64,000 bases of DNA from contig NZ_CP030033.1 in assembly GCF_003611035.1 (NCBI RefSeq), positions 3,224,001 to 3,288,000 on the forward strand. The letters run 5' to 3'. The position numbers and the translations under genes are program-made. Below are positions 3,421 through 28,969 of this stretch, in pieces. Positions within the stretch are counted from its first letter, which is position 1. The number at the start of each line of letters is the position of its first letter. The notes beneath the pieces were generated by a model, which saw only the letters and a list, made by a program, of their open reading frames with translations, was not told the origin of the DNA and searched no databases. The DNA comes from Cryobacterium soli. Lineage in GTDB: Bacteria; Actinomycetota; Actinomycetes; Actinomycetales; Microbacteriaceae.

Positions 3421-4482
3421 GTGATTGAGAAGCTGCGCGTGGCCGTTATCGGGGCCGGGTATTGGGGGCCCAACCTGGCCCGCAACTTCAGGTCGAGTCC
3501 GGAGTGGGAACTCGCGGCCGTCTGTGACCTCGACCTCGACAGGGCACGGCGGCTCGCTGAGCAAGGGGGCGGGACCAGGGCCGAATCCTCGCTCGCGGCG
3601 GTCCTCGCCGCCGATGACATCGATGCCGTCGCCATCGCGACACCCGCGACGACCCACCACCGCATCACAACAGCAGCCCTGGCGTCGGGCAAGCATGTGC
3701 TTGTCGAGAAGCCGCTCGCCGACACCGTGGAGCACGGCGCGGACATGGTCGGCCGGGCCGCGGCCGGAGGCCTGGTGCTGATGGCGGATCACACGTATTG
3801 CTATACCCCGGCCGTGTTGAAGATGCGGGAACTCATCGAGGAGGGCGCGCTGGGTGACATCCTCTTCATCGACTCCGTGCGAATCAACCTGGGTCTGATC
3901 CAACCCGACGTGGACGTCTTCTGGGACCTCGCCCCGCACGACCTCGCCATCATCGACTTCCTCCTGCCCGGCGGGCTCAGACCGCTGGCGGTATCGGCGG
4001 TCGGTGCCGACCCGCTCAGGTCCGGCAAGGCGTGCGTGGGCTATCTCACCCTTCCGCTGCAGAACGGTGCCATGGCCCATGTGCACGTCAACTGGCTCAG
4101 CCCGACTAAGGTGCGCCAGATGATCATCGGTGGCACACGGCGCACACTCGTGTGGGACGATCTCAATCCACAGCAGCGACTGAGCGTCTACGACCGCGGG
4201 GTCGACCTCGATATCCAGTCGCTGGACGGCGTGGAACGCAGTGCTGCCACGGTCTCCTATCGTCTGGGCGACACCTGGTCTCCGGCCCTGCCGGAGACGG
4301 AGGCGCTGAGATCCATGGTCGACGAATTCGCCGGCGCGATACGGGGCCGCCGGTCGCCGCGCACGGACGGCCGCGCCGGGCTCAGGGTCCTGACGATCCT
4401 GGACGCGGCCAGACGGAGCCTCGCGGAGGACGGTGCCGCGACGGCACCGATCGCGGACCTGGCGCTGGCGGGGAACTCCTGA
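3421..4482 (+). CDS. Gfo/Idh/MocA-family sugar-nucleotide dehydrogenase
   Basis: A 353-residue NAD(P)-dependent oxidoreductase. The N-terminal Rossmann motif VAVIGAGYWG lies at about residues 7-16, the family EKP motif at 96-98 and the catalytic-domain segment WDLAPHD at 168-174. The frame is open upstream, but the GTG at 3421 is preferred: it sits about 5 bases after GAGG and directly before the Rossmann strand. In polysaccharide loci such proteins often oxidise C3 of a UDP-sugar to give a 3-keto sugar for a DegT aminotransferase, as WlbA and GnnA do. The aminotransferases and acyltransferases downstream fit that, but the exact substrate is an inference. Its stop shares one base with the next start (TGATG), so the two are translationally coupled. 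Confidence 0.85.
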   Translation: MIEKLRVAVIGAGYWGPNLARNFRSSPEWELAAVCDLDLDRARRLAEQGGGTRAESSLAAVLAADDIDAVAIATPATTHHRITTAALASGKHVLVEKPLADTVEHGADMVGRAAAGGLVLMADHTYCYTPAVLKMRELIEEGALGDILFIDSVRINLGLIQPDVDVFWDLAPHDLAIIDFLLPGGLRPLAVSAVGADPLRSGKACVGYLTLPLQNGAMAHVHVNWLSPTKVRQMIIGGTRRTLVWDDLNPQQRLSVYDRGVDLDIQSLDGVERSAATVSYRLGDTWSPALPETEALRSMVDEFAGAIRGRRSPRTDGRAGLRVLTILDAARRSLAEDGAATAPIADLALAGNS

Positions 4483-7400
4483 TGGGCGCCGTACGGGGCC
4501 GTGGCCTCACCGGCCGGCTGCGTGCCCTGGTCCTCGCTGTCGTGGTGGGGTCCGGCCTGTTGGTCGCGTTCAGCGCCCCGGCCCAGGCCGCCACGGGCTG
4601 CGCTGCCGCCGCCAACCCGATCACCTGCGAGAACGCGCTCACGGGCACTGCCGCTTCGGTCTGGGATATCGACGGCGCCGGGGACGACAGCATCCAGGGG
4701 TTTTCCACCGATATCAGCGTCAACGTCGGTGGGTCCATCGGATTCAAGATCGACACCAACGCACGCTCGTACACGATCGCGGTCTACCGCACCGGCTGGT
4801 ACCAGGGGCTCGGCGCTCGCAAGATTGCCGACGTGACCCCGTCTGCGACGCTGCCCCAGACCCAGCCACCGTGCCTCACCGATCAGGCGACCGAACTCTA
4901 CGACTGCGGCAACTGGGCGCAATCGGCGTCATGGACCGTGCCCTCCGATGCCGTGTCCGGGGTGTACTTCGCCCTCCTGACGCGCACCGACACCGGCGGC
5001 CAAAGCCACATCACCTTCGTCGTGCGCAACGAGGCCAGCCGTTCCGCAGTGCTGTTCCAAACCTCGGATCCCACCTGGCAGGCGTACAACACCTACGGCG
5101 GCTCCGATTTTTACGAGGGTGCCGCGAACGGCCGGGCGTACAAGATCAGCTACAACCGGCCCGTGGCGACCAGGGACGGCATCGATGGTCGTGACTTCTA
5201 CTTCAGCAACGAATACCCGATGGTGCGATTCCTGGAGAAGAACGGTTATGACGTGTCCTATTTCAGCGGTGTCGATACCGACCGTTTCGGCGCGAGCCTG
5301 AAGAACCACACCGTCTTCCTCTCTGTCGGCCATGACGAGTACTGGTCGGCCGGACAGCGGGCCAACGTCGAGGCCGCCAGGGATGCCGGAGTCAATCTCC
5401 AGTTCCTGTCGGGGAACGAGGTGTACTGGAAAACCCGATACGAGTCGTCGACCGTGGGAACCCAGACCGCCTATCGCACCCTCGTCTCGTATAAGGAAAC
5501 CTGGAGCAACGGCAAGATCGACCCCAGCGCAGCGTGGACGGGGACCTGGCGTGATCCACGGTTCGCCTCCCAGGCCAACGGGGGTGGACGGCCGGAGAAC
5601 CAGCTGACCGGAACCCTCTACCAGTCGAATTTCTCCGACCTGCCGGTCACGGTCTCGGCGGCCGAGGGCAAGTACAGGCTCTGGCGCAACACCAGCCTGG
5701 CGAGCCTCTCCGCGGGTGCGTCGGTGGCTCTCGCCCCACACACCATCGGCTACGAATCGGACGAGGATCTGGACAACGGCTTCAGGCCTGCCGGGCTGAT
5801 CACGCTGTCGACCACGACAGGGGCCGTGCCGGAATACCTCCAGGACTTCGGCAACACGGTCGGTCCCGGAAACACGACCCACCATCTGACTCTGTACCGC
5901 GCGCCGAGTGGCGCCCTCGTGTTCTCGGCGGGGAGCGTCCAATGGACCTGGGGACTCGACCAGACCCACGATGGCGCTGGGGCGGCGGCAGACGTGCGGA
6001 TGCAACAGGCCCAGGTGAACCTGCTGGCCGACATGGGGGCCCAACCGGGTTCCCTGGCGAGCGGCCTCACGGCAGCGACAGCCAGCACGGACAAAACGGC
6101 GCCGACTGCCACCATCACCAGTCCCGCTGCCGGCGCCTCGCTGGCCAACGGTTCCCTGGTGACAGTGACGGGAACCGCGGCCGATTCCGGCGGTGGAGTC
6201 GTCGCCATGGTCGAGGTCTCGTCCGACGGCGGCACCCTGTGGCACCGCGCGACGGGCACCACCTCATGGACCTACTCCTATCTCCAACAGGGTGTCGGAG
6301 CGGCGAGCATCCAGGTGCGCGCTGTAGATGACAGCGCCAACTACGCCGCAACGCCCGTATCGCGCACCGTGACCGCCACCGGGCCCTTCACAGTGTTCGG
6401 GCAGCAGACGCCGGCCCTCCCCGACGCCGGAGACGGCTCCGCCGTCGAGCTGGGGCTGCGCGTCACCGCCAGCCAAAGTGGCTTCATCTCCGGGATCCGG
6501 TTCTACAAGAGTGCGGCGAACACCGGCAGCCACACGGGCTCGCTCTGGAGCGCGGCCGGCGTGCGGTTGGCGACGGTGGCTTTCGCCAACGAAACAGCGT
6601 CGGGGTGGCAGACCGCTGCGTTCACGCCACCCGTTGCCGTGACGGCGGGCACGACCTACGTCGTGTCCTATTCGGCTCCGGCAGGACACTACGCGGCCGC
6701 GGTCGACTATTGGGCGTACCGCGGCAGCCCCGCAGAACCGCTCACGGTCGCCGGTGGGTTCGGCTCGGCCCCTGCCGGGGTGTACAACACCAATATCGGC
6801 GCGTTCCCAACCAGCGATTACCGGCAGAGCAACTACTTCGTCGACGCGGTCTTCACCAACGTCGACAATTCGCCGCTCACTGCGGGCAGCCAGTGGCCGT
6901 TACCCGGGGCCTCGAGTGTGCCGGTGAACAGCACGGTCAGCGCCGTTTTCTCCCGCGACGTCACATCCTCCAGCATCGCCTTCACAGTGAAAGACCAACT
7001 CGGGGCGACGATCAGCGGCACCGTCGGCTACAACGCCGCCACTCGCACGGCCACCTTCACTCCGGTCGCGCCGCTCAGCGGCTTCGTCACGTACTCGGTG
7101 GCCCTGACCGCCACTGCCACCGGTGGCGGCGGCGCGCTCACCTCCGGTGGCACCTGGTCATTCACCACAGTGCGTCCGGCACCCGACGACGGCCTGTGCC
7201 CGTGCAGCCTCTACACGGATGCAACGGTGCCGACGATCCTGCAGGTCTCGGACCAGACCCTCGTCACTCTCGGCGTGCGGTTCTCGAGCTCCGCCGCCGG
7301 TACCATCTCCGGGATTCGCTTCTACAAGAGCGCTGGGAACACCGGCACGCACACCGGGACACTGTGGAACGCCGCAGGCACACAGCTGGCAACGGCGACC

Positions 7401-8447
7401 TTCACGGGGGAGAGCGGCTCCGGGTGGCAGACGGTTGCCTTTGCGACTCCGGTCACCATCGCGGCCGGCACCACCTACGTCGCCTCGTACACCAGCCCGA
7501 CGGGCACCTACTCGGCGACACCAGGCGAATTCAGCGGCTCGGGGATCACTCGCGGGCCGTTGACGGCGGGGAACAGCGCGGGGGCGTATACCTACTCCGC
7601 TGGTTTCCCCGGAGCCCAATCCGGGGCAAGTTACCTGGTGGACGTGGTGTTCAACCGGGCTGCTGACCCGATCACCGTGGTCAGCCTGAGCCCGCCGGAC
7701 GGCGCTATCGAGGTCGACCCGGCGACACCCGTCGCGGTCGAGCTCTCCACCGCGATCGCCCCGGGATACACCCTGGGGGTGACGGCCGCAGCCGCGACGA
7801 TCGCCGGCACGACCGGCCTGTCCGCGGACGGGAAGACCGTGACCTTCACACCCGCACAGGCGCTCCCGGCCGACACCGCCCTCACCGCGACGCTTTCTGG
7901 AGCAACCTCGACCCTGGGGGTGGCTGTGCCCACGCAGAGCTGGAGTTTCCGCACACGGGCCGCCGCCGCTCCCACGAGCTACAGCCTGCTCGGGACGGTC
8001 ACGCCCACGGTGTTGTCCGCCACGGACGATTCGTCCGCCGTCGAACTGGGGATGTCCTTCACCTCATCGCAGGCCGGTGAGATCAGGGCGATCCGGTACT
8101 TCAAGGGCGCGGGCAACACCGGCACCCACACCGGTTCGATCTGGTCGGCGACCGGAGCCAGGCTGGCGACGGTGACGTTCACCGGTGAAACGGCCAGCGG
8201 ATGGCAGACCGCGCAACTCAGCACGCCCGTGGCGATCAGCGCCGGCCAGAGCTACACGGTGTCCTACTTCGCGCCGGTCGGGCACTACTCGTACACGCCG
8301 TCCTATTTCGCCCAGACCCGCACGAGCGGGCCCCTCACGGCGGTGGCGACCACGAACGGGCGCTACGTGTACGCGGCCGGAGGGGGCCTGCCGGTCTACT
8401 CGTGGAACGCCACCAACTACTTCGTCGACGTGGTCTTCGTCCCCTAG
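4482..8447 (+). CDS. Large secreted protein: dimethylformamidase-like domain, Ig-like domains, three DUF4082 modules
   Basis: A 1321-residue exported protein. Residues 1-36 are a signal peptide with cleavage expected after AQA. Residues about 60-540 resemble the large-subunit domain of N,N-dimethylformamidase; HDEYW (284-288) and SGNEVYW (310-316) are the strongest blocks and may hold metal or catalytic residues. A bacterial Ig-like domain follows (about 545-632). Then come three DUF4082 modules at about 636-795, 903-1059 and 1165-1321, each carrying a version of FYKxAxNTGTHTGxLW and ETASGWQT, separated by Big_5-type Ig-like domains. The ATG at 4482 is chosen because it overlaps the upstream stop and starts the signal peptide; earlier codons in the frame lie inside the previous gene. 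It sits inside the EPS operon, so an extracellular role on or with the polymer is inferred. There is no sortase motif or C-terminal membrane anchor. Confidence 0.87.
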   Translation: MGAVRGRGLTGRLRALVLAVVVGSGLLVAFSAPAQAATGCAAAANPITCENALTGTAASVWDIDGAGDDSIQGFSTDISVNVGGSIGFKIDTNARSYTIAVYRTGWYQGLGARKIADVTPSATLPQTQPPCLTDQATELYDCGNWAQSASWTVPSDAVSGVYFALLTRTDTGGQSHITFVVRNEASRSAVLFQTSDPTWQAYNTYGGSDFYEGAANGRAYKISYNRPVATRDGIDGRDFYFSNEYPMVRFLEKNGYDVSYFSGVDTDRFGASLKNHTVFLSVGHDEYWSAGQRANVEAARDAGVNLQFLSGNEVYWKTRYESSTVGTQTAYRTLVSYKETWSNGKIDPSAAWTGTWRDPRFASQANGGGRPENQLTGTLYQSNFSDLPVTVSAAEGKYRLWRNTSLASLSAGASVALAPHTIGYESDEDLDNGFRPAGLITLSTTTGAVPEYLQDFGNTVGPGNTTHHLTLYRAPSGALVFSAGSVQWTWGLDQTHDGAGAAADVRMQQAQVNLLADMGAQPGSLASGLTAATASTDKTAPTATITSPAAGASLANGSLVTVTGTAADSGGGVVAMVEVSSDGGTLWHRATGTTSWTYSYLQQGVGAASIQVRAVDDSANYAATPVSRTVTATGPFTVFGQQTPALPDAGDGSAVELGLRVTASQSGFISGIRFYKSAANTGSHTGSLWSAAGVRLATVAFANETASGWQTAAFTPPVAVTAGTTYVVSYSAPAGHYAAAVDYWAYRGSPAEPLTVAGGFGSAPAGVYNTNIGAFPTSDYRQSNYFVDAVFTNVDNSPLTAGSQWPLPGASSVPVNSTVSAVFSRDVTSSSIAFTVKDQLGATISGTVGYNAATRTATFTPVAPLSGFVTYSVALTATATGGGGALTSGGTWSFTTVRPAPDDGLCPCSLYTDATVPTILQVSDQTLVTLGVRFSSSAAGTISGIRFYKSAGNTGTHTGTLWNAAGTQLATATFTGESGSGWQTVAFATPVTIAAGTTYVASYTSPTGTYSATPGEFSGSGITRGPLTAGNSAGAYTYSAGFPGAQSGASYLVDVVFNRAADPITVVSLSPPDGAIEVDPATPVAVELSTAIAPGYTLGVTAAAATIAGTTGLSADGKTVTFTPAQALPADTALTATLSGATSTLGVAVPTQSWSFRTRAAAAPTSYSLLGTVTPTVLSATDDSSAVELGMSFTSSQAGEIRAIRYFKGAGNTGTHTGSIWSATGARLATVTFTGETASGWQTAQLSTPVAISAGQSYTVSYFAPVGHYSYTPSYFAQTRTSGPLTAVATTNGRYVYAAGGGLPVYSWNATNYFVDVVFVP

Positions 8448-8500
8448 CGGGCGTCGGCTCCTCGCGATCGTCCACATCCGAACCAACCAGGAGTGAAGCT

Positions 8501-9499
8501 ATGAATGAAGTTCAGGGGGCCGCCGTACTGGTGACCGGCGGAGCGGGAACGATCGGGTCGACCATCGTGGACCGGCTGCTCGACGCAGGGGCCGGCCACA
8601 TCGACGTCCTCGACAACCTGGTGCGAGGAAGGCGATCGAACCTGGCCGGCGCACTGGCTTCGGGGCGGGTCACACTCGTCGACGGTGACATTCGGGACCG
8701 GGATCTTGTGCATGACGTCACCAGGGGCAAAGACCTGGTCTTCCATCAGGCCGCCATCCGGATCACGCAGTGCGCCGAAGAACCGCGGCTGGCCCTCGAG
8801 GTTCTCGTCGACGGCACTTTCACCGTCCTGGAGGCCGCGGTCGAGCACAAGGTCGGCAAACTGATCGCCGCGTCGAGCGCGTCAGTGTATGGGCAGGCCG
8901 AGTACTTTCCCACCCCGGAGCAGCATCACCATCACGCGAACGACACACTCTACGGCGCGGCCAAGTCGTTCAACGAGGGGATGCTGCGCAGCTTCAGGGC
9001 GATGTCCGGCCTCGACTTCGTGGCGTTGCGCTACTTCAACGTCTACGGGCCGCGGATGGATGTGCACGGCCTGTATACCGAGGTGCTCGTTCGATGGATG
9101 GAACGTATCGCGGATGGCAAACCGCCCCTGATCTTCGGCGACGGCAGCCAGACCATGGACTTCGTCTTCACCGACGACATCGCCAGGGCCAACCTGCTGG
9201 CCGCGAGCAGCGATGTGGCAGAGGGCGTCTACAACATCGCCAGCGGCAGGGAGACGAGCCTTCTCGAACTGGCCGAAGCCCTGCTCCGGGTGATGGGCTC
9301 AGACCTGGCCGTCGAACACGGACCGGAGCGGGCCGTCAACGGCGTCGCCCGGCGGCTTGCCGACACCACGGCGGCCCGTCGCGATCTCGGTTTCACCGCG
9401 GAGGTGCCCCTCGACGCCGGGCTGCGGCGCTTGGTCGACTGGTGGCGTCCACTGCGCGGCCAGTTGGCGTCGGAACGGTTCGCCGGAGTCGGCGCATGA
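8501..9499 (+). CDS. NAD-dependent sugar epimerase/dehydratase (extended SDR)
   Basis: A 332-residue extended short-chain dehydrogenase. The cofactor motif GGAGTIG is at residues 13-19, the catalytic serine lies in the SSAS segment (125-128), and the active-site pair is Tyr151/Lys155 in YGAAK. It probably epimerises or oxidises a nucleotide sugar (UDP-glucose 4-epimerase or UDP-glucuronate epimerase-like chemistry) to supply the EPS. The ATG at 8501 has AGGAG eight bases upstream; the open frame before it overlaps the preceding gene and is not coding. A 53-base gap after the large secreted protein is the longest within this operon, so a second internal promoter is possible. A histidine run (QHHHH, 141-145) lies near the active-site loop and is unusual. 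Confidence 0.9.
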   Translation: MNEVQGAAVLVTGGAGTIGSTIVDRLLDAGAGHIDVLDNLVRGRRSNLAGALASGRVTLVDGDIRDRDLVHDVTRGKDLVFHQAAIRITQCAEEPRLALEVLVDGTFTVLEAAVEHKVGKLIAASSASVYGQAEYFPTPEQHHHHANDTLYGAAKSFNEGMLRSFRAMSGLDFVALRYFNVYGPRMDVHGLYTEVLVRWMERIADGKPPLIFGDGSQTMDFVFTDDIARANLLAASSDVAEGVYNIASGRETSLLELAEALLRVMGSDLAVEHGPERAVNGVARRLADTTAARRDLGFTAEVPLDAGLRRLVDWWRPLRGQLASERFAGVGA

Positions 9500-10644
9500 A
9501 CCGGATCAATGTCATGAAACCGTGGCTCGGGGCCGAGGAGGTGGCCATGGTGACGGCCGTGATCGAATCCGGCTGGGTCGCGCAGGGCCCGCGCGTCGCG
9601 GCGTTTGAGGAGCAATTCGCCCAAGCCATGGCCGTGCCGTTCGCGGTGGCCACCTCGAACTGCACGACCGCGCTGCACCTCGCGCTCGTGGTGGCCGGGA
9701 TCCAACCAGGCGACGATGTCGTCGTTCCGTCGTTCTCCTTCATCGCGACCGCCAACGCCCCCTCCTACGTCGGCGCGAGGGTCGTGTTCGCCGACGTCGA
9801 CCTGAAGACCGGCAACGTGACCGTGGAGACCATCAGATCAGCCCTGACCGGCGCAACGCGCGCCGTCATCGTGGTCGACCAGGGCGGCGTGCCCGTCGAC
9901 CTCGAACCGATCAGGGCGCTGTGCGATCCGCTCGGGATCATCGTGATCGAGGACGCCGCGTGTGCCGCGGGCTCCGTCTATCAGGGCCGACCGGTCGGCG
10001 CCGGTGCCGATCTCACCGCCTGGTCCTTCCATCCCCGCAAGATCCTCACGACAGGCGAGGGAGGAATGCTCACCACTGCACGGGGCGATTGGGCCGAGCG
10101 GGCCAGGAGACTGCGCGAACACGCCATGAACGTTTCGGCGGACGCCCGGCACGCCTCGGTGCTCGCTCCTGCCGAGGAATACCTTGAGATCGGATTCAAT
10201 TACCGCATGACCGACCTTCAGGCGGCCATCGGGATCGTCCAGCTGAGCCGGCTTCCCCAGGCCGTGAGACGGCGCCGCGAGCTCGCGGCGGGGTACCGGT
10301 CCGCCTTGGGCGGAGTGCCGGGACTGCGCGCGATCACCGATCCAGCCTGGGGGCGGACCAACTACCAGTCATTCTGGGTGGAGGTCACCGACGACTACCC
10401 GGTGGACCGGGATGGCCTCCTCGAGCGACTCGCGGGGGCAGACATCTCGGCCCGGCGCGGAATCATGGCCGCCCACCGGCAGCCTGCCTACGCGAACCGC
10501 GACACCGGGGATGCGGCGCTGCCCGTCACGGAGTACCTCACCGATTCCACGCTGATCCTGCCCCTCTACCACGATCTCACCGCGGCCGACCAGGAGCGCA
10601 TCATCGGCGTGCTCCAGCTGGAAGGGGCGCTGCGCCATGACTGA
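9496..10644 (+). CDS. DegT/DnrJ/EryC1-family aminotransferase
   Basis: A 382-residue PLP-dependent sugar aminotransferase. The PLP-binding lysine is Lys182 in FHPRKILTTGEGG, and the aspartate of IEDAACAAGS (151-160) should pair with the pyridine nitrogen; most relatives have Gln where this protein has Cys156. It would transfer an amino group from glutamate to a keto-sugar nucleotide. The ATG overlaps the epimerase stop by four bases (ATGA), and the acyltransferase that follows overlaps its end by eight bases. That order suggests amination followed directly by N-acylation of the same sugar. Specificity cannot be assigned from sequence; PglE-like or ArnB-like activities are both possible. Confidence 0.9.
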   Translation: MNRINVMKPWLGAEEVAMVTAVIESGWVAQGPRVAAFEEQFAQAMAVPFAVATSNCTTALHLALVVAGIQPGDDVVVPSFSFIATANAPSYVGARVVFADVDLKTGNVTVETIRSALTGATRAVIVVDQGGVPVDLEPIRALCDPLGIIVIEDAACAAGSVYQGRPVGAGADLTAWSFHPRKILTTGEGGMLTTARGDWAERARRLREHAMNVSADARHASVLAPAEEYLEIGFNYRMTDLQAAIGIVQLSRLPQAVRRRRELAAGYRSALGGVPGLRAITDPAWGRTNYQSFWVEVTDDYPVDRDGLLERLAGADISARRGIMAAHRQPAYANRDTGDAALPVTEYLTDSTLILPLYHDLTAADQERIIGVLQLEGALRHD

Positions 10645-11281
10645 GCTGATCCTGATCGGGGCGAGCGGACTGGCCAGGGAGGTCCTCGCCCTGCTGCGTT
10701 CGGCGGGAGATCCGCGCACTCTGGCCATCGTCGACGACGCACCGGCTCGCTGGGGCACCCGGCTGGACGGAGTGCCTGTCGTCGGGCCCGTGGCGGACGT
10801 GCAGGATCGCCCCGAGGCGCAGCTGCTCCTGTGCGTGGGCCAGGGGGCGGTCAGGGCCAGGCTCGCCGGTCGGCTGACCGACGCCGGCGTGCTTCCCGAC
10901 CGTTTCCCGGCGGTCGTGCACACGGGTGTGGACGTACCGGCAGGCTGTCGGATCGGTGCGGGGACGATCGTGCTGGCCGGCACGGTGATCACGGCCGACG
11001 TCACGATCGGTTCCCACGTCGTGGTGATGCCGAATGTGACCCTCACTCACGGGAACCGGATCGGGAGTTTCGCCACCCTCTGCGCGGGGGTGTCGCTGGG
11101 TGGAGACGTGAGGATCGGCACCGCGGCCTACCTGGGCATGAATTCGGCCGTGAGGGAGCAGTCGACGGTGGGGGCGGGCGCCGTCATCGGAATGGGGGCG
11201 GTCGTGGTCACCGATGTGCCGGCCCAGGAAACCTGGCTGGGAGTCCCGGCGCGACACCACATGAGGAGGGTCCTGATATGA
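10637..11281 (+). CDS. NeuD/PglD-type sugar O- or N-acyltransferase
   Basis: A 214-residue protein with a short N-terminal Rossmann-like domain (ILIGASGLAREVL, residues 4-16) followed by a left-handed beta-helix of imperfect hexapeptide repeats (about 90-205), ending in the typical VPARHHMRR tail. This is the architecture of NeuD and PglD, which use acetyl-CoA to acylate amino sugars. It starts within the end of the aminotransferase gene and its stop overlaps the next start (ATGA), so it is strongly coupled to both aminotransferases. Acetylation of the amino group installed by the preceding enzyme is the likeliest job; another short acyl donor cannot be excluded. Confidence 0.88.
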   Translation: MTELILIGASGLAREVLALLRSAGDPRTLAIVDDAPARWGTRLDGVPVVGPVADVQDRPEAQLLLCVGQGAVRARLAGRLTDAGVLPDRFPAVVHTGVDVPAGCRIGAGTIVLAGTVITADVTIGSHVVVMPNVTLTHGNRIGSFATLCAGVSLGGDVRIGTAAYLGMNSAVREQSTVGAGAVIGMGAVVVTDVPAQETWLGVPARHHMRRVLI

Positions 11282-12402
11282 GCATCTTCGAAGCATTACC
11301 GACCGTACAGGGCGTCCCCATGCTCGACCTGGGGATCCAGCACCGGCAGATCGCCGATCGCGTCCGGGACGGCTTCGACCGGGTCCTGTCGGGCACTGGC
11401 TTCATCCAGGGCCCCGAGGTGCACCAATTCGAGGACGAGTTCGCTCGCTACTGCGGAGTCGCCCGGGTCATCGGGGTCGGCAACGGCACCGACGCTCTCG
11501 AACTCGCACTGCGTGCTGCCGGCGTCGGCCCGTCAGATGAGGTCATCGTCCCGGCGAATACGTTCGTGGCAACTGCCGAAGCCGTTGTCAGGGCAGGTGC
11601 GACCCTGCGCCTGGTCGACTGCGACGCCAACTTCCTCCTCGACCCGGCGGCGCTGGACCGTGCGGTGACGAGCCGTACCGCGGCCGTCGTGGCCGTGCAC
11701 CTGTACGGGCAGACCGCGCCGGTCGACGACATCCGTGCGGTGGTCGGACCGGACAGGCTGATCGTCGAGGATGCCGCCCAATCCCAGGGTGCGCTCTACC
11801 ACGGGCGCCGGGCGGGCTCACTGGGTGATGTGGCCGGCACCAGCTTCTACCCGGGCAAGAACCTGGGGGCCTACGGAGACGCCGGTGCCGTCATGACCTC
11901 GTCGACGGAGATAGCCGACCGGGTGCGAATGCTCGCCAACCATGGCGGGCGGACCAAGTACGAGCATCTGGTCGTCGGCACCAATTCGAGGCTGGACAGC
12001 CTGCAGGCGGTTGTCCTCTCCGCGAAGCTCGCCTTCCTGGATGAGTGGAATGCGCAGCGGCGGGCCCTGGCGGAGCGTTACGACGCCCTGATCGACGGCC
12101 TGCCCGGGGTGATCCCGCCACGAACGGTGGCCGGTAACGAACACGTCTACCACCAGTACGTGGTCAGGGTGCCCAACCGGGACACGGTTCTCGCCCACTT
12201 GACCGATGCCGGCATCGGTGCGGGGATCCACTACCCGCATCCGCTGCACATGCTGCCGGCTTTCGCCTCCGCCCACTGGCCCGTCGGGAGCTTTCCGGTC
12301 GCTGAGCAGCTTGCCGGGGAGATCCTGTCCCTGCCGATCTACCCCGGCCTGACCGAGGCGCAACAGGACAGCGTTGTGAGCGTGCTCCGGTCATGCCTGT
12401 AG
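11278..12402 (+). CDS. Second DegT/DnrJ/EryC1-family aminotransferase
   Basis: A 374-residue PLP enzyme with Lys194 in FYPGKNLGAYGDAGAVMT and IVEDAAQSQGA (162-172), the standard family signatures. It resembles the QdtB/FdtB/WlbC branch, which makes 3-amino sugars from 3-keto nucleotide sugars, more than the aminotransferase two genes upstream does. With the Gfo/Idh dehydrogenase at 3421 and the hexapeptide acyltransferase at 27294, it would complete a 3-acylamino-sugar route; that link is inferred. The ATG at 11278 overlaps the previous stop, and the flippase gene begins ten bases before this gene ends. Two DegT enzymes in one operon suggest two differently aminated sugars, or one diamino sugar, in the repeat unit. 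Confidence 0.9.
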   Translation: MSIFEALPTVQGVPMLDLGIQHRQIADRVRDGFDRVLSGTGFIQGPEVHQFEDEFARYCGVARVIGVGNGTDALELALRAAGVGPSDEVIVPANTFVATAEAVVRAGATLRLVDCDANFLLDPAALDRAVTSRTAAVVAVHLYGQTAPVDDIRAVVGPDRLIVEDAAQSQGALYHGRRAGSLGDVAGTSFYPGKNLGAYGDAGAVMTSSTEIADRVRMLANHGGRTKYEHLVVGTNSRLDSLQAVVLSAKLAFLDEWNAQRRALAERYDALIDGLPGVIPPRTVAGNEHVYHQYVVRVPNRDTVLAHLTDAGIGAGIHYPHPLHMLPAFASAHWPVGSFPVAEQLAGEILSLPIYPGLTEAQQDSVVSVLRSCL

Positions 12403-13913
12403 GACCGGCCGCCAGGTCGACTCTCGAGGACAGGGTGCGCAGCGGCGCCCTCTGGGCCGCGGCGAGCACGGTCGGACTGCGGTTCGCGAACATCGCGATC
12501 ATGGCTTTTGTGGCGCGTATCGTGGCGCCGGAGGCCTTCGGCGTTTTCGCGCTCGCGATGGTCGTGCAGGGAGTCGTCGTGAGCCTCGCCGAGCTGGGGG
12601 TGTCGTCGGCGATCCTGCGCTCCGATCTGGATCCTGACACCATCGCGCCCACCATCGCGACCCTGTCGATTGTGACGAGTGCCGGTCTGGCCGCCCTGAT
12701 GGTGATCTTCGCCGAGCCGTTGGCGGCTCTCCTGGGATCTGTGGATGCGGCCGGACCGTTGCGGGTCATGGCCGTCTCGGTCGCTCTGGTCGGCCCGTTC
12801 GCGGTGCCGTCCGCTCAGATCCAACGGGAATTCCGGCAGGACGTCGTCTTCAGGGCAGCGGCGATCGCATTCATCCCCAGCAGTCTCGTACTGGTCGGCC
12901 TCGCGCTGGTTGGTGACGGGGCAATCGCGTTCGCCTGGTCCAGGGTGGCGGCGCAGCTCGTGAGCGGGATCATTCTCAGCGTGACCGTGAAGAAGCGCTA
13001 CTGGCCGGGATTCCGCCCCGATCAACTCCGGATGCTGATCGCCTTCGGCCTCCCGCTCGCCCTTGCCAACCTGCTGAGCCAGGTGCTGCTCAACGTCGAC
13101 TACGTCTTCGTCGGCCGGAACCTGGGGGTGACCGAGACCGGGCTCTATGCTCTGGCCTTCACTATTTGCGCGTGGTCGACCGCCGTGATCGGGTCGGTGC
13201 TGAACGGCATCGTCCAGCCGGCCTTCTCCAAAGTTCGGCACGAACAGGGCGACCTGGCGGATGCCCTCTACCGGGCGACCCAGACAGTGGCACTTGTCGC
13301 CGTGATGATCGGAGCACTCACCCTCGCCCTTGCCGAGCCCTTGATCACCACGGTGTACGGCAGCCAATGGTCTGCTGCCGCCCCCGCACTGGTGGTGTTG
13401 AGCGGATACGGGATCATCTTCGTGATCTGCCTGCTCTTCGCCAACATCATCATCTCCACCGGTCGAACTGCCGCGTTGTTCCTGGTGCAGGTGGTGGCGC
13501 TCGCCGCGCTCCTCCCGGCTATGGCCGCCGGAGTCCAGTGGGGTGGGCTCGTCGGCGTCGGACTCTCGCACATCGTCGTCACGGCCGGGATCACCTTTCC
13601 GCTGTATCTGCTCCTGATCCGCAGGAGCATCGCCCGCGCACCCGGCGTCGTCTTCCGCGCACTGGCGTGGCCGGGACTGGCCGGTGGTGTCGCGGCGGCC
13701 TCGGCGTGGTCGGTGGCATTGACCGTGCCGACCGCGCCGCTGAAGCTACTGATCGGCGGCTGCGTCGGCGCCCTGGTCTACCTCGTCCTGACCGCGCCCC
13801 TGGTCGTCCGGCTGCTCCCGCCCGCCCTCGCCCGGCTGCGCCTCGTTTCAGGGGCGGCGACCCAGCTGGTGCGTCCGGCCGCGTGGGCACAGCGTCGCTG
13901 GGGCAGGGTCTGA
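12393..13913 (+). CDS. Polysaccharide flippase (Wzx-like, MOP superfamily)
   Basis: A 506-residue, strongly hydrophobic protein with about 12 or more membrane helices. It starts SGALWAAASTVGLRFANIAIMAFVARIVAPEAFGVFALAM..., a typical opening for PST-type oligosaccharide transporters in the MATE-like superfamily. It should flip the undecaprenyl-linked repeat unit from the cytoplasmic to the outer face of the membrane, where the O-antigen-polymerase-like protein at 21867 could join units. The gene overlaps the aminotransferase by ten bases and is followed after one base by a glycosyltransferase. The last 35 or so residues are basic and cytoplasmic by the positive-inside rule. Confidence 0.9.
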   Translation: MPVGPAARSTLEDRVRSGALWAAASTVGLRFANIAIMAFVARIVAPEAFGVFALAMVVQGVVVSLAELGVSSAILRSDLDPDTIAPTIATLSIVTSAGLAALMVIFAEPLAALLGSVDAAGPLRVMAVSVALVGPFAVPSAQIQREFRQDVVFRAAAIAFIPSSLVLVGLALVGDGAIAFAWSRVAAQLVSGIILSVTVKKRYWPGFRPDQLRMLIAFGLPLALANLLSQVLLNVDYVFVGRNLGVTETGLYALAFTICAWSTAVIGSVLNGIVQPAFSKVRHEQGDLADALYRATQTVALVAVMIGALTLALAEPLITTVYGSQWSAAAPALVVLSGYGIIFVICLLFANIIISTGRTAALFLVQVVALAALLPAMAAGVQWGGLVGVGLSHIVVTAGITFPLYLLLIRRSIARAPGVVFRALAWPGLAGGVAAASAWSVALTVPTAPLKLLIGGCVGALVYLVLTAPLVVRLLPPALARLRLVSGAATQLVRPAAWAQRRWGRV

Positions 13914-13914
13914 C

Positions 13915-15150
13915 ATGCCCGCCGGAGTGCACCGGCGCGTCCTGGTCCAGGTGATCGGCTTCACCCTGGGAGGACTCCAGGCCAATGCCGTCGACCTGGC
14001 CTGGGCCGGCAGGGAGCACGGCTACGAGTCCGTCCTGATCGCCCCACGCGACACCATGCCCACCGGGCCGTCCCTGCAGGAGGTCGCTGAGGAGCGGGGC
14101 GTCCGGCTGGTGCCGTACGACCGCCCGACGTCGATCCTGGATGGTGCCAGAACGCTCTCTAGGCTGGCGCGCGAACACGGTGCGGACATCGTGCACACCT
14201 ACAGCGGATGGTCCTATCGGGCCGCGTTCTGGGGGCCGTGCCTGGGAGGACGGCGGCCGTTGGTCATGACCAACTACGAGATGGCGGCCATGCCGGGCAC
14301 GTACCGAGCGGCGAATCTGATCGTCGGAACGGGGTACCTGAGGGATGAACTCGCCGGGAGCCAACGAAGGGTGGACCTGATCAGTCCTCCGGTCGATCTC
14401 GACCGGGACAACAGGCGTGCAGTCGACGGGACCGCGTTCATCGCCGAGTGGGGCCTGGACCCACTGCACACCCGGGCTGTGGTGGTGAGCAGGCTCGACG
14501 AAGAGATGAAGGCGAAGAGCGTGGAGGTGATGATCAGAGCGGTCGAGCGCCTCAACCAGCCCGCGCTGGACCTGATCGTTGTCGGTGACGGGAACGCCGG
14601 GGAGCGCCTCCGGCTGGTGGGCCAGGCGGTGAACTCGGCAGTGGGGCGTACTGTGGTGACCTTCACCGGGTCGATGGCCGACCCCAGACCGGCCTACGCC
14701 AGCGCGGATATCGTGTTGGGGATGGGGAGTTCGGCGGCCAGGGGACTCGCGTTCGGTAAACCCCTGGTCGTGGTGGGGGAGCGAGGGCGCGGCGAAGCGT
14801 TCGGCCCGGGAACGGCTGCCGGACTCTTCCGCAGCAGTTTCTGGAGTGACGACGCCCCGGTGGACCCCGTCGCTGACCTGGCCAGCCTGCTCGAGGCGAT
14901 GCTCGACCGTCGCTCCGGATGGGTTGGCCTGGGAGAATTCGGACGGCGCTTTGCCGAGGAGAATTTCGGCCTCACTGCCATGGCCGCCAGGCTGGCCGCG
15001 GTCTATCGGGATGCCGAGGCGAGCTATGGTCTTCGGGCCTGGTGGTCAGAGCGGGACCTGGAAGTGGCGGCGGCGCTCCGGCACCTGCCCTCACACGGTG
15101 GAACTCGCAGGGCCGGCACGCGAGTGCGTGACCGCGTGGACCTGGCATGA
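13915..15150 (+). CDS. Glycosyltransferase family 4 protein
   Basis: A 411-residue GT-B-fold enzyme. The acceptor half begins RRVLVQVIGFTLGGLQANAVDLAWAGREHGYE, with the glycine loop typical of GT4. The donor half has VVVSRLDEEMKAKSVEVMIRAV and a phosphate-binding region ending in SSAARGLAFGKPLVVV. The usual E-x7-E pair is not obvious; SSAARG replaces the common PSxxEG, so activity could differ. It is separated by one base from the flippase stop and overlaps the next glycosyltransferase by four bases. It most likely adds one sugar to the growing lipid-linked repeat; substrate is unknown. Confidence 0.82.
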   Translation: MPAGVHRRVLVQVIGFTLGGLQANAVDLAWAGREHGYESVLIAPRDTMPTGPSLQEVAEERGVRLVPYDRPTSILDGARTLSRLAREHGADIVHTYSGWSYRAAFWGPCLGGRRPLVMTNYEMAAMPGTYRAANLIVGTGYLRDELAGSQRRVDLISPPVDLDRDNRRAVDGTAFIAEWGLDPLHTRAVVVSRLDEEMKAKSVEVMIRAVERLNQPALDLIVVGDGNAGERLRLVGQAVNSAVGRTVVTFTGSMADPRPAYASADIVLGMGSSAARGLAFGKPLVVVGERGRGEAFGPGTAAGLFRSSFWSDDAPVDPVADLASLLEAMLDRRSGWVGLGEFGRRFAEENFGLTAMAARLAAVYRDAEASYGLRAWWSERDLEVAAALRHLPSHGGTRRAGTRVRDRVDLA

Positions 15151-16319
15151 GAATCGCTGTGCTGAACCCGCAGCCAGACCCGCTTTCGTCGAAGAACTGG
15201 TCGGGTACCCCGCGCGGAATCGCGGACGGTCTGGCGGGCCGTGGTGTCGAGGTCGTTCCCATTGGAACGAAACTTCCCCAGGGCCTTCACCAGCTGGTTG
15301 CTGTGGCATCGCGTATCGGTGGTCAGCGGGGAGCCGTGGCCGACCGCACCCCCGTCAGGCAGCGGTCACGGACCTGGGCACTCCGGCGTCACCTTGATGG
15401 AGCGGGCCCGCTGGACGCGATCGTGGCTATGGGCCAGGAGACCTTCGACCTGGCCCGGTTGCGCCGCCCGGGAGTCCCGATCCTCACCTACGACGACACG
15501 ACCCTGCGCCAGATGTGGCAGCACCCCGACTCCGACATCCGTTCGGCCGGCTTTCCGGAGCGGGCCGTCGACCTGTGGTGTGCTCGGCAGCAGGCCTCCA
15601 GTCGTGCTGCTGACCTGTGCTGTGTGAGCACGGAGTGGGCGGCCGGTTCCTTCATCACCGACTACGGCCTCGCGCCGGAACGGGTGCGGGTCGTCGGCAT
15701 CGGTCATCGTCCCCGTGCCAGGGATACGACACAAGCGCGGGACTGGGACACGCCGCGGTTTCTGTTCGTCGGCGTGGACTGGCGGCGCAAGAACGGCGAC
15801 GCCGTGGTGCGGGCCTTCCGCAGGGTGCGACAGACGCACCCCGGAGCGACGTTGGACCTTGTGGGCAATCATCCCCGCGTGGACGAGCCAGGCGTGCGCG
15901 GCCACGGCTTCCTGGCCAGGGAGAACGCGCACTCCCAGGCCCGGCTCGATGCGCTGTTCGCCCGGGCGACAGCATTCGTGCTGCCGAGCCGGTTCGACCC
16001 GGCCGGCATCGCGTACCTGGAAGCAGCCTCGGCCGGTCTCGCGGTGATCGGGACGTCACAGGGCGGCGCCTCCGAGTTGCTCGGGACGGCTGCGATCACC
16101 GTGCATCCCGACGACGACAGCGCGCTGGCCGCAGCCCTGGAACGGATCAGCAGTCCCGCTGAGGCACAGTCCCTGGGTCAACGCGCGGCCGCCATAGCCG
16201 CGCGTTCCCGTTGGGTAGATGTTGCCGACCGGATACTGGCGGCCATCGACCGCTCGCCCGTGCGGATGCGACCGGACCTGACCGGCAGCCCCATGACCGA
16301 GGAGGAGACATCGTGGTGA
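15147..16319 (+). CDS. Glycosyltransferase (GT4-like)
   Basis: A 390-residue putative glycosyltransferase. The N-terminal half (MRIAVLNPQPDPLSSKNWSGTPRGIADGLAGRG) binds the acceptor. The C-terminal half carries RFLFVGVDWRRKNGDAVVRAFRRV and the GT4 donor-site segment LPSRFDPAGIAYLEAASAGLAVIGT, in which Asp and Glu stand at the spacing of the E-x7-E motif. The ATG overlaps the stop of the preceding glycosyltransferase (ATGA), and its own stop overlaps the start of the next (GTGA). It would act at the inner face of the membrane on the lipid-linked oligosaccharide. No specificity can be given. Confidence 0.82.
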   Translation: MRIAVLNPQPDPLSSKNWSGTPRGIADGLAGRGVEVVPIGTKLPQGLHQLVAVASRIGGQRGAVADRTPVRQRSRTWALRRHLDGAGPLDAIVAMGQETFDLARLRRPGVPILTYDDTTLRQMWQHPDSDIRSAGFPERAVDLWCARQQASSRAADLCCVSTEWAAGSFITDYGLAPERVRVVGIGHRPRARDTTQARDWDTPRFLFVGVDWRRKNGDAVVRAFRRVRQTHPGATLDLVGNHPRVDEPGVRGHGFLARENAHSQARLDALFARATAFVLPSRFDPAGIAYLEAASAGLAVIGTSQGGASELLGTAAITVHPDDDSALAAALERISSPAEAQSLGQRAAAIAARSRWVDVADRILAAIDRSPVRMRPDLTGSPMTEEETSW

Positions 16320-17560
16320 AGACCAGGCCAGGCGTCATCGAACTATTCGAACGCACCCGGCGTGCCGGAATCGCCGACACCGGCCGGCGAGCATTGCGGA
16401 GACTCTCCGAACGGATGGATGTGGAGTCGCTCGACTTCCCCCTCCTGACCGAGGACATCGCTGACTCGGCCCGGATGCGCGCTCGCGCGGGCATCGAGGG
16501 GCACAGGGGAGCGGGGCCGCTGACGGTCGGCTGGGTGTGCACCCCGCCGAAGCCCGGGTCGGGCGGCCACACCACGCTGTTCCGCATGGTGGAGGCGTTG
16601 GAAGCAGCGGGGCACCGGTGCGTGATCTTCCTCTACGACCGCCACGGCGGCGACCTGACCCGGCACGCCGCTGTGGTCCGTGAGTACTGGCCGGCGATGA
16701 AGGCGGAGATCAGGGATGCCACCATGGGGCTGGCCGGGGCGGACGCCTACGTGGCCAGTTCCTGGGAGAGTGCGCACGTCGTCGCCGCCAGGGCGACCGG
16801 CCAGGCGGCGCTGTTGTACTTCATCCAGGACTACGAGCCCTTCTTCCACCCGCACGGCACCCTCTATGCGCTCGCGGAGGACAGCTACAGGTTCGGCTTC
16901 CGCAACATCGCCCTCGGGGAACTGGTCTCGCGCCATCTCACTGCCGCCGGTGTCGAGCACGCGGTGGCGCCGTTCGGCTGCGATACCGATGTGTACCACC
17001 TGCTCGGCGGCGCGGCGCCGCGCTCCGGGGTGGTCTACTACACCAAACCGGGCTCGGACCGGCGAGGGTACCTCCTGGGCCGGCTGGCGCTTGAGGAATT
17101 CCACAGTCGCCACCCGGAGGTGCCCGTGCATCTCTACGGGGACGCGGTCGACGACTGGACCATTCCCGTGGTGCAGCACCATCGATTGTCACCGACCGAG
17201 TTGAACCGCCTGTACAACCGGACACTCGCCGGCCTGGCGATCTCGTTCACCAACATCACGCTCGTGGCGGAGGAGATGCTCGCAGCCGGGGCGCTGCCCG
17301 TCGTGACCGAGGTGCCGTATGCGCGGGACGTGCTGCCGAACCCGAACGTAGTCTGGTCGCCGTCCACCCCCGGGGCTCTGGCTGATGCCCTGAGCCGTGC
17401 CGTGGAGCAGTCGGCGGACGTCGGGTCCCGCGCGCTCATCGCCGGCTCCGTGCGTCAAGGGTGGGGGGCCGCGCAAGCCGTCGTCGCCTCGGAGATCGCC
17501 GCCGCCGTCATGGGCCGGTCTGCGGACTCCGCGATGCTGCCCGCACCCGGGCAGTCATGA
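16316..17560 (+). CDS. WsaF-like rhamnosyltransferase-family glycosyltransferase
   Basis: A 414-residue enzyme resembling the WsaF rhamnosyltransferase family. After an N-terminal helical stretch come VGWVCTPPKPGSGGHTTLFRMVEAL, QDYEPFFHPHGTLYALAEDSYRFGF and FGCDTDVYH, followed by YTKPGSDRRGYLLG at the start of the donor half and SFTNITLVAEEMLAAGALPVVTE near the end. The family forms rhamnan linkages in S-layer glycans, but donor choice here is not proven. GTG at 16316 overlaps the previous stop; GTG at 16313 is equally in frame, and a GGAGGAG ribosome-binding sequence at 16301-16307 serves either. This is the last gene of the rightward operon, and a strong hairpin begins at its stop codon. 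Confidence 0.82.
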   Translation: MKTRPGVIELFERTRRAGIADTGRRALRRLSERMDVESLDFPLLTEDIADSARMRARAGIEGHRGAGPLTVGWVCTPPKPGSGGHTTLFRMVEALEAAGHRCVIFLYDRHGGDLTRHAAVVREYWPAMKAEIRDATMGLAGADAYVASSWESAHVVAARATGQAALLYFIQDYEPFFHPHGTLYALAEDSYRFGFRNIALGELVSRHLTAAGVEHAVAPFGCDTDVYHLLGGAAPRSGVVYYTKPGSDRRGYLLGRLALEEFHSRHPEVPVHLYGDAVDDWTIPVVQHHRLSPTELNRLYNRTLAGLAISFTNITLVAEEMLAAGALPVVTEVPYARDVLPNPNVVWSPSTPGALADALSRAVEQSADVGSRALIAGSVRQGWGAAQAVVASEIAAAVMGRSADSAMLPAPGQS

Positions 17561-17600
17561 CAGGTCCCGGCCGTCTGGGAAGACGGCCGGGACCTGTCAT
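17557..17600. terminator. Perfect 20-bp bidirectional terminator hairpin
   Basis: The left arm (17557-17576) and right arm (17581-17600) are exact reverse complements over 20 bases, with a GGGA loop. The hairpin lies between two convergent genes and overlaps the stop codon of the rightward operon. There is no T-run on either side, as is common in high-GC actinobacteria. It should end transcription from both directions. Confidence 0.88.
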
Positions 17601-17616
17601 GCGGAGTGCACGTGAG

Positions 17617-19092
17617 CTACGGGGCGGGAACCGTGGTTCCGTTCTGCCACACGTTGCCGCTCCAGGAGTTGCCGTTGCCCGGGTTGTAGGCAGTGGCGGC
17701 GCCGTATCCGCCGCACTTCGGCCTCAGCTCGGTACCGAAGGTGTTGCCGATGATGTCGACATTGCTGGCCACGATGTCAGCGTCTGAGCCCGCGTACAGG
17801 CAGTAGCCGCCACCGTTGAACAGGTTTCCCTGCACCAGCGCGTTCTGGGTCTGGGAGCCCTGGCTGTACAACGCCAGCGCAGCCGAGAAGTTACCCTGGG
17901 TGCCCGCATCCAGTCGGTTGCCGACGATCGTGAGGTTCTTCGCGCCGATCGCGAGGATGGGCTCGTTGTGGCTGCCGCCGTTGCCGGGGTCGCCGAATAC
18001 GGGAAGATCGTGGATCCAGGAGTTCTTGATCACGACGTTCTGGTCCGCATAGACGCCCTTACCCCAACCGTGGATGTTGCAACCGTCGCAGGTGAAGTCG
18101 TACGAGGCGATCCCTGGACGGTCGCTGTCGGGGGAGGACACACCGGGACCGATGATCTCGACCCGCTGGATCATGGTGTTCGTCGAGCCCTGGAACACCT
18201 CGATCCGTCCGGTGACCTTCGAGTTCTTGATCGTGACGTTGGCCGCACGGACCTGTACTCCGCCGGAGATGTCGCGACCGTCGATGACGGTGCCCGGCGT
18301 GGTGATGTTCAACGCGCCCGACTTCGTGAGGGAGGTGCCGGCCGGCACTCCCGTGGTCGAGGCGCTCGGCCAACCTGAGGCTGCCGGGGTGGTGGGAGCC
18401 GGCGTCGGGGTCGGGGCCGGAACCGCGGTCGGCGCGGGTGAGGGTGCCGGAGCCGGAGCCGGGCTGGTCACCGGGGGCGTGGGAGCCGCGACGGTGGCCG
18501 GGGTGAATTCGACGTCGACGAAGTAGTTCGTGGACTTGTAGGAGCTGGTGGGGAAGCCGCCACCGGAGCCGTAGCGGTACAGGCCGTTCTTGGACGCGGC
18601 CACGGTCAGAGAGCCGCTCTTCTTCGCGGAGGCGAAGTAGTTGCTGGTGTACGCGTACTTGCCCTGTGGTGCGAGGTAGGACACCACGTAGCGCGTAGCG
18701 GCCTTCACCGCCACGGGCTTGGACAGCTTGGCCGTCTGCCATCCGCTGGCAGTCTCGTTGGTGAACGTCACCTTGGCGAGGCTGGTCCCTGTGGAGGACC
18801 ACAGCTGCCCGGTGTGGGTCCCGGTGTTGCCTGCGCCCTTGTAGAACTTGATCGCGGTCACGGAGCCGGCCTGTGCCGAGGTGAACGAGACACCGAGCTC
18901 CACCGCTGACGTGTCGGTCTTCGCCGCGGCTACGGCCGGCTTTTCGGCCGCGAACAGCGTGGTGGGTGATGCTGCGGGGGCTGCCGTCGCAGCCGTCGTG
19001 CCTCCTGCCACCAGGCCGGCGGCCACGATGAGCGCCAGAAGCGATTTTTGGGGCCAGGAGCGGCCCGCCTTGATGGTGCGTTTCTTCTTCAC
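17617..19092 (-). CDS. Secreted DUF4082 protein with predicted right-handed beta-helix domain
   Basis: A protein of about 491 residues. It has a basic N-terminus (KKKRTIKAGRSW), a hydrophobic signal segment and a cleavage region near ATAAPAAS. One DUF4082 module (about residues 50-205) carries FYKGAGNTGTHTGQLW and ETASGWQT, very like the three modules in the protein at 4482. A Pro/Ala/Thr-rich linker (about 205-245) leads to a C-terminal domain with repeated short strands such as NVTIKNSKVTGRI, NVVIKNSWIHDL and NLTIVGNRLDAG, typical of right-handed parallel beta-helices found in pectate-lyase-like and surface proteins. GTG at 19092 follows AAAGG by nine bases; a TTG at 19098 is the alternative. 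Likely an extracellular polysaccharide-binding or modifying protein; enzymatic activity is unproven. Confidence 0.85.
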   Translation of the reverse strand: MKKKRTIKAGRSWPQKSLLALIVAAGLVAGGTTAATAAPAASPTTLFAAEKPAVAAAKTDTSAVELGVSFTSAQAGSVTAIKFYKGAGNTGTHTGQLWSSTGTSLAKVTFTNETASGWQTAKLSKPVAVKAATRYVVSYLAPQGKYAYTSNYFASAKKSGSLTVAASKNGLYRYGSGGGFPTSSYKSTNYFVDVEFTPATVAAPTPPVTSPAPAPAPSPAPTAVPAPTPTPAPTTPAASGWPSASTTGVPAGTSLTKSGALNITTPGTVIDGRDISGGVQVRAANVTIKNSKVTGRIEVFQGSTNTMIQRVEIIGPGVSSPDSDRPGIASYDFTCDGCNIHGWGKGVYADQNVVIKNSWIHDLPVFGDPGNGGSHNEPILAIGAKNLTIVGNRLDAGTQGNFSAALALYSQGSQTQNALVQGNLFNGGGYCLYAGSDADIVASNVDIIGNTFGTELRPKCGGYGAATAYNPGNGNSWSGNVWQNGTTVPAP

Positions 19093-23219: not shown

Positions 23220-23220
23220 G

Positions 23221-25855: not shown

Positions 25856-25860
25856 GGGTG

Positions 25861-28958: not shown

Positions 28959-28969
28959 GTCTCCGGCCG

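Follow-up and report, generated by a model that had tools for sequence, protein, structure and literature searches.

What two secreted proteins carrying DUF4082 modules do inside a polysaccharide biosynthetic locus is the question raised by a region of the genome of Cryobacterium soli, which consists of one contig of 4,385,465 bases. The window analysed is a stretch of 64,000 nucleotides (positions 3,224,001-3,288,000 of the 4.4-Mb genome), in which a locus of the Wzx/Wzy type spans positions 1243-29905 and encodes a PF02397 sugar transferase, a Gfo/Idh dehydrogenase, an SDR protein, two DegT aminotransferases, a NeuD-type acetyltransferase, the flippase Wzx, six glycosyltransferases and a Wzy_C protein. 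A search of the whole genome with PF13313 revealed four DUF4082 matches of 158.7-188.9 bits each (cut-off 28.4), all in this locus, confirming the three modules in one exported protein and one in another that had been described in a sequence-only reading of the same DNA. The first protein begins with a signal peptide (Sec-type, by eye) followed in order by a DMFA2_C domain, Big_7, DUF4082, Big_5, DUF4082, Big_5 and DUF4082, the three DUF4082 stretches together scoring 470 bits. The second contains one DUF4082 (E 4e-55), a proline-rich linker and a right-handed beta-helix. The results are consistent with two secreted proteins that DUF4082 would hold on the polymer of the locus, an iron amidohydrolase (probably one that de-N-acylates polysaccharide) and a beta-helix protein, a reading to which a probability of about 0.5 is given.

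The distribution of DUF4082 was compared with that of the amino-sugar cassette of the locus, for which the Gfo/Idh dehydrogenase served as the marker. Among 60 relatives, DUF4082 was present in 17 and the dehydrogenase orthologue in 19; both were found in 16 genomes, DUF4082 alone in one (G008), the dehydrogenase alone in three (G014, G025 and G028) and neither in 40 (Fisher 1e-10). The marker was thus present in 16 of the 17 genomes with DUF4082 versus 3 of the 43 others. Among 396 genomes of the phylum, both were present in 10, one without the other in 3 and 3, and neither in 380 (Fisher 3e-15), with DUF4082 matches below the cut-off (G152, G295, G307 and G403) scored as absent and the dehydrogenase scored as present at 55% identity or more, weaker matches of 37-49% occurring in 16 further genomes. 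The exceptions with DUF4082 and no marker were G144, G213 and G229. On an rpoB tree of 37 of 39 genomes (G027 and G029 gave no match), built from part of that one gene and read without weighing branch support, at least 8 changes of state were required for DUF4082 and at least 9 for the marker, and the two states agreed in 32 of the 37 genomes. The observed correlation of 0.74 was reached in none of 3000 simulations of independent evolution on this tree. Relatedness does not account for the association, and functional coupling of the DUF4082 genes with the cassette is highly probable.

The sequence-only reading had proposed a survey for DUF4082 genes beside polysaccharide loci, and enrichment there was found. 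A PF02397 transferase gene lay within 25 kb of 25 of 45 DUF4082 genes, in 20 of 28 genomes against 1.2 genomes expected from random placement; the 25-kb distance was set after the first survey results, 15 of the 28 genomes belong to one genus, and the linkage was seen in 6 of 13 genera. As an approximate control, genes that contain Big_5 without DUF4082 were counted in the same genomes, and 2 of 22 were near such a transferase, only 22 independent control genes being available because most Big_5 matches sit inside DUF4082 proteins. The link is not to the possession of a polysaccharide locus as such, since PF02397 transferases were present in all 22 DUF4082-negative members of the genus searched. 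The proposed association with polysaccharide loci is therefore strongly supported, and in sharper form, as a link to one amino-sugar cassette and not to polysaccharide loci in general. In the genomes G016 and G017 the DMFA2-DUF4082 gene lies 216 kb and 715 kb, respectively, from the marker, a second DUF4082 gene remaining in the locus. The three marker-positive genomes that lack DUF4082 encode other exported-looking proteins near the cassette (by eye), of 449-451 residues in G014 and G028 and of 492 residues in G025, the last with an end that looks GH16-like, as if a different enzyme took the place of the DUF4082 protein.

A scan of named genomes returned at least 545 DUF4082 relatives, of which the best 79 loci, the top matches and not a random sample, were analysed. 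Most encoded DMFA2 proteins with Big domains and varying numbers of DUF4082 modules in Actinomycetota and Rhizobiales; two planctomycetes and one Hymenobacter were also represented. Two or more cassette genes were found within the fetched stretch in 35 of the 79 loci, five of them from Rhizobium, and in five more (Microvirga, two Bradyrhizobium, Singulisphaera and Xylanimicrobium) the dehydrogenase was located farther along the same contig, as confirmed by identical overlap. Both aminotransferases and the SDR protein accompany it in Microvirga and Singulisphaera, and it was the only cassette gene found in one Bradyrhizobium (L130). No linked cassette was seen in the stretches examined for the remaining 39 loci, one of which (L116) had a single cassette gene. 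When 46 genomes drawn from the 79 loci were searched, leaving out short contigs and redundant entries of Nocardioides and Arthrobacter, 44 contained a relative of the dehydrogenase, those of Nonomuraea (L109) and Hymenobacter (L143) lacking one. Of 17 stretches around the dehydrogenase in named genomes, 7 overlapped the DUF4082 locus and 10 did not. Because the identity of the dehydrogenase was 43-48% in Rhizobiales and Singulisphaera, its mere presence is weak evidence there and it is the physical linkage that counts. Linkage of the cassette to DUF4082 recurs in Actinomycetota, Rhizobiales (Pseudomonadota) and a planctomycete, hence in three phyla.

Four loci of Actinoplanes and Paractinoplanes (L120, L124, L141 and L149) showed a second long DUF4082 frame without DMFA2 (1380-1722 residues) directly after the DMFA2-DUF4082 gene. 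In the Actinoplanes sandaracinus genome that contains L124, the five cassette genes (L203) lie about 29 kb, in contig coordinates, from the DMFA2-DUF4082 gene; the two stretches do not overlap and the linkage is presumed from the equal lengths of their contigs, with two partial matches to the beta-helix gene in the interval.

The catalytic domain of the larger protein matched PF20254 with 337.9 bits (E 1.3e-100, cut-off 27). A search of the PDB with the whole protein gave no match at E 1, and neither DUF4082 protein matched any NCBIfam model over its cut-off. A profile of 33 DMFA2 domains matched N-acetyl-(R)-beta-phenylalanine acylase (8huy, E 1.6e-12) and the large subunit of N,N-dimethylformamidase (DMFase; 6lvb, E 1e-8). 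PMC7686228 names Y399, Y440 and E521 of DMFase as ligands of the iron, together with the active-site residues H519, which is essential, and N547. As counted along the printed alignments, Y202, Y211, E286, H284 and N312 of the window protein align with these residues in that order, the pairing of Y202 with Y399 resting on a weak sub-alignment of 1.9 bits. All five were kept in 99 of 99 DMFA2 domains, so that the domain, described earlier as dimethylformamidase-like, probably works as an iron amidohydrolase. The conserved iron site argues for a polymer-modifying amidohydrolase, a role beyond the decoration of the polymer first proposed. The DMFA2 domain was present in 23 of 57 genus genomes in a search kept out of the association tests. 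Among 8000 scored candidates 7627 were DMFA2 relatives, and DUF4082 was present in 118 of the 120 matches listed, a count from which a length filter excluded short proteins consisting of DMFA2 only.

The simplest reaction for such an enzyme would be de-N-acylation of the polymer, since the neighbouring genes resemble those for the synthesis of N-acylated amino sugars and the name of one solved relative refers to an N-acetyl substrate; the odds of this particular reaction are put at about even. Weighing against it, DMFase is recorded as inactive on acetamide in PMC7686228, where the small subunit is also described as required for activity. No NodB-type (CE4) Pfam domain was present among the matches at E 0.001 of either DUF4082 protein. 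The literature search, outside whose scope most subscription-journal papers lay, found nothing joining dimethylformamidase with exopolysaccharide or with phenylalanine acylase; in it DUF4082 was nearly absent, appearing in a table row only, and PF13313 was not found.

The four DUF4082 modules are 44-61% identical to one another, so that their description as near-matching was overstated, and their best matches in the other genomes of the set are 69-85% identical. Being closer to these counterparts than to each other, the modules diverged before the genomes of the genus did. The blocks FYKxAGNTGTHTGxLW and ETASGWQT, from which a common binding partner had been deduced, are the consensus of an alignment of 62 sequences drawn across the phylum, and the corresponding patterns matched 55 and 72 of 99 modules. 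Sharing of the motifs was rejected as proof of one ligand; that argument is weak because the blocks are a signature of the family. No convincing solved structure was found for DUF4082 by sequence, the matches to designed WD40-type proteins being spurious (i-Evalues of 43 or more per repeat in the alignments shown). Module 4 was confidently modelled as a beta-sandwich (mean predicted local distance difference test score, pLDDT, of 97) resembling the lectin-like domain of Cwp84, parts of phage fibres and capsids, PHR domains and domains of polymer esterases; structural comparison gave the same overall fold as the Cwp84 lectin-like and PHR domains. Weak sequence matches to the Cwp84 family PF18560 (4ci7) were found in 3 of 62 DUF4082 modules (best 3e-4), and the window protein scored 20.5 bits, under the cut-off of 27. 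DUF4082 thus shares a predicted fold with the Cwp84 domain but falls below the family cut-off, and carbohydrate binding by Cwp84 is itself a proposal. Precomputed PF08005 (PHR) matches occur in the DUF4082 homologues P0017, P0020, P0025 and others, in agreement with the fold matches to the PHR domains of MYCBP2 and BTBD2, and a remote relationship of PHR and DUF4082 is possible.

Immunoglobulin-like domains and DUF4082 are the only non-catalytic domains recognised in the two proteins, and in the homologue P0098 the same beta-helix is joined to a known cell-wall-binding domain instead. Because of these arrangements and the likeness of the model to surface- and polymer-binding domains, it is plausible that DUF4082 binds the polymer made by this locus, and a role as a surface-polymer binding module is rather favoured. 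An unlikely but serious alternative assigns DUF4082 a general structural or adhesive role in secreted proteins, which would here be matrix scaffolds or adhesins, with DMFA2 acting on another amide such as an N-acetyl group of peptidoglycan or a wall polymer and the coupling reflecting gain and loss of one surface island. The family-wide motif conservation and the fold common to PHR domains and viral capsid proteins would suit such a module, as would the occurrence of DUF4082 in genomes without the marker and the precomputed fn3 (PF00041), PF16656 or Big domains of some DUF4082 proteins. However, hitch-hiking on an island would not by itself predict an association that persists without adjacency of the genes (G016, G017 and G059), and its recurrence in three phyla also counts against this explanation.

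The assignment of the second protein as a beta-helix protein was supported by its homologues and by a model of the domain (pLDDT 87), in which the right-handed beta-helix fold was found. Matches of this model include alginate lyase, the alginate epimerase AlgG and the Vibrio polysaccharide lyase RbmB, and also the adhesin PfbA and NosD, so the structural matches are non-specific. HD and SHN positions are conserved. The lyase-like matches raise the alternative that the pair releases or remodels the coat for dispersal, the de-N-acylase exposing sites at which the beta-helix protein cuts the chain, in the manner of Agd3 with Ega3. The genes agd3 and ega3 are adjacent in Aspergillus fumigatus and related genes co-occur in bacterial operons, according to PMC7229062. 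Given the breadth of the structural matches, PfbA and NosD included, and that many of the DMFA2-DUF4082 stretches fetched showed no second DUF4082 gene, dispersal is considered improbable.

It has also to be considered whether the enzyme serves to scavenge external amides for their nitrogen or acyl groups, the locus providing a mere context for secretion. The solved relatives are indeed named for action on dimethylformamide and N-acetyl-beta-phenylalanine. Nevertheless, the enzyme is secreted with three DUF4082 modules, its gene tracks the cassette, and the gene lies inside the biosynthetic operon, as indicated by TGATG at positions 4480-4484, where its start overlaps the stop codon of the Gfo/Idh gene; scavenging is accordingly considered improbable. 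Chance or an annotation artefact as the cause of the two genes lying in this locus can practically be dismissed; nothing in its favour was found, and all four modules of the genome sit here, 20 of 28 genomes showed the linkage to PF02397 where 1.2 were expected, and only 2 of 22 control genes did.

The preferred reading, in which both proteins act on the polymer of their own locus, can be set out as follows. An amino-sugar-rich polymer would be made via the Wzx/Wzy route, and two co-encoded secreted proteins would act on it outside the cell. The DMFA2-family iron(III) amidohydrolase would deacylate amino sugars of the polymer that carry N-linked acetyl or possibly formyl groups, while three DUF4082 beta-sandwich modules on an immunoglobulin-like stalk anchor the enzyme to the polymer. 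The beta-helix protein, anchored by one DUF4082, would probably serve the same polymer as a lyase, hydrolase, epimerase or scaffold. That bacteria of three phyla repeat the pairing of DUF4082 with the amino-sugar cassette suggests a dedicated polymer-trimming system, and the sequence-only reading was right in seeing signs of a dedicated system here.

The gene content of the cassette would suit a 2,3-diacetamido sugar with an added 4-amino step. A Gfo/Idh dehydrogenase, a WbpE/QdtB-like aminotransferase and an acetyltransferase adjoin in this locus, as in the WbpB/WbpE/WbpD pathway to 2,3-diacetamido sugars, of which WbpB and WbpD are presumably the dehydrogenase and acetyltransferase counterparts; in contrast to that pathway, the cassette adds an ArnB/TlmJ-like second aminotransferase and the SDR protein. 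WbpA and WbpI, further members of the pathway, were not seen within the cassette, and no search for them was made elsewhere. The Gfo/Idh protein scored below the cut-off of the UDP-GlcNAc 3-dehydrogenase model NF040723 (150.8 bits versus 450). ManNAc3NAcA is described in a teichuronic-acid-like polymer of Streptomyces in PMC13274773, and a triacetamido sugar is known in Psychrobacter from PMC8040287, no enzyme here being tied to the latter. An asparagine synthase-like gene (PF00733) of the locus possibly amidates a uronic acid of the polymer.

The features of the window are listed in Table 1. The statement of the sequence-only reading that the two DUF4082 genes face the same terminator holds in part: an inverted repeat separates the convergent transcripts, but the DMFA2-DUF4082 gene is not adjacent to it, its operon ending there 9 kb downstream. 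A scan for stems followed by a T-run gave 0 terminator sites. The beta-helix gene starts at either GTG 19092 or TTG 19098, the spacing of the ribosome-binding site being better for GTG (by eye). The 327-residue protein at the end of the locus has relatives in several DMFA2-DUF4082 loci of Arthrobacter and Paenarthrobacter.

Table 1. Features of the C. soli window, with positions counted from its first nucleotide.
Feature	Position	Strand	Evidence
Sugar transferase (PF02397), probable polymer-initiating enzyme	1243-2844	-	Pfam
Gfo/Idh sugar-nucleotide dehydrogenase, cassette marker, UDP-GlcNAc 3-dehydrogenase-like	3421-4482	+	Pfam, NCBIfam, phylogenetic profile
DMFA2-DUF4082 secreted protein, 1321 residues	4482-8447	+	Pfam; signal peptide by eye
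DMFA2_C catalytic domain (PF20254), residues 98-495	4773-5966	+	Pfam, score in text
DUF4082 module 1	6405-6842	+	Genome-wide PF13313 search
DUF4082 module 2	7224-7634	+	Genome-wide PF13313 search
DUF4082 module 3	7998-8426	+	Genome-wide PF13313 search
SDR, epimerase/dehydratase-type, cassette member	8498-9499	+	Pfam, NCBIfam
DegT aminotransferase 1 (closest solved: TlmJ, ArnB type)	9493-10644	+	Pfam, PDB comparison
NeuD/PglB/VioB-type acetyltransferase	10637-11281	+	Score over TIGR03570 cut-off
DegT aminotransferase 2 (closest solved: 2oga 'Transaminase', QdtB; next WbpE)	11272-12402	+	Pfam, PDB comparison
Wzx-type flippase (PF13440)	12393-13913	+	Pfam
GT4 glycosyltransferase	13915-15150	+	Pfam
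GT4 glycosyltransferase	15147-16319	+	Pfam
WsaF-like glycosyltransferase	16316-17560	+	Pfam
Perfect 21-bp inverted repeat, probable bidirectional terminator	17556-17576/17581-17601	between convergent units	Repeat search
Secreted DUF4082 and right-handed beta-helix protein	17617-19092 (GTG) or 17617-19098 (TTG)	-	Pfam, homologues, model
DUF4082 module 4	18517-18945	-	Genome-wide PF13313 search; model
Second half of locus: GT2, GT2, Wzy_C, Wzz-like (by eye, no Pfam match), asparagine synthase, GT4	20129-27297	-	Pfam
Wzy_C protein (PF04932)	21867-23219	-	Pfam
Asparagine synthase-like protein	23951-26041	-	PF00733
327-residue protein	28922-29905	-	No Pfam match
Large protein with lamin-tail domain and Exo_endo_phos, outside the locus	57235-60162	+	
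Large 5'-nucleotidase-type phosphoesterase, outside the locus	60285-62777	+	

By functional analogy, the closest known system is Agd3 with Ega3. Agd3, a de-N-acetylase of family CE18 bearing a carbohydrate-binding module (CBM87), and the GH114-type enzyme Ega3 belong to the galactosaminogalactan cluster, and bacterial homologues of both occur in polysaccharide operons, as set out in PMC7229062. Common to the two systems is a metal-dependent de-N-acetylase, here a predicted one, with a binding module in the cluster of its own polymer, often beside a second polymer-active enzyme; the system described here differs in the DMFA2 domain with its predicted iron site, the DUF4082 module and the cassette-specific association. 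The catalytic domain of 6lvb and 8huy is homologous to that of the window enzyme, and 6lvb also agrees with it in the iron ligands and in the named His and Asn positions, whereas the window enzyme is secreted, carries DUF4082 and immunoglobulin-like modules and is encoded in a polysaccharide operon. As the system departs from Agd3 and Ega3 in its catalytic family, in its binding module and in its tight link to one cassette, the chance that a new enzyme class is involved is real. In its full form the proposal is tentative: DMFA2-DUF4082 proteins may be a new class of polysaccharide de-N-acylase, using iron(III) held by two Tyr and one Glu, with a new family of polymer-binding modules, dedicated to polymers of one di- or triamino-sugar cassette, with enzyme and cassette moving together across Actinomycetota, Pseudomonadota and Planctomycetota.

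If this is true, DUF4082 would gain a function, the iron active site known from solvent degradation would extend to the modification of polymers, and the marker cassette would point to a polymer that can be purified. The chemistry of NodB-type and CE18 enzymes differs from that of a two-Tyr, one-Glu iron site, and a further de-N-acylase chemistry would thereby be added. Since Aspergillus that has lost Agd3 is impaired in both deacetylation and biofilm formation, according to PMC7229062, an analogous enzyme could matter for the building of the matrix in many soil and cold-living bacteria.

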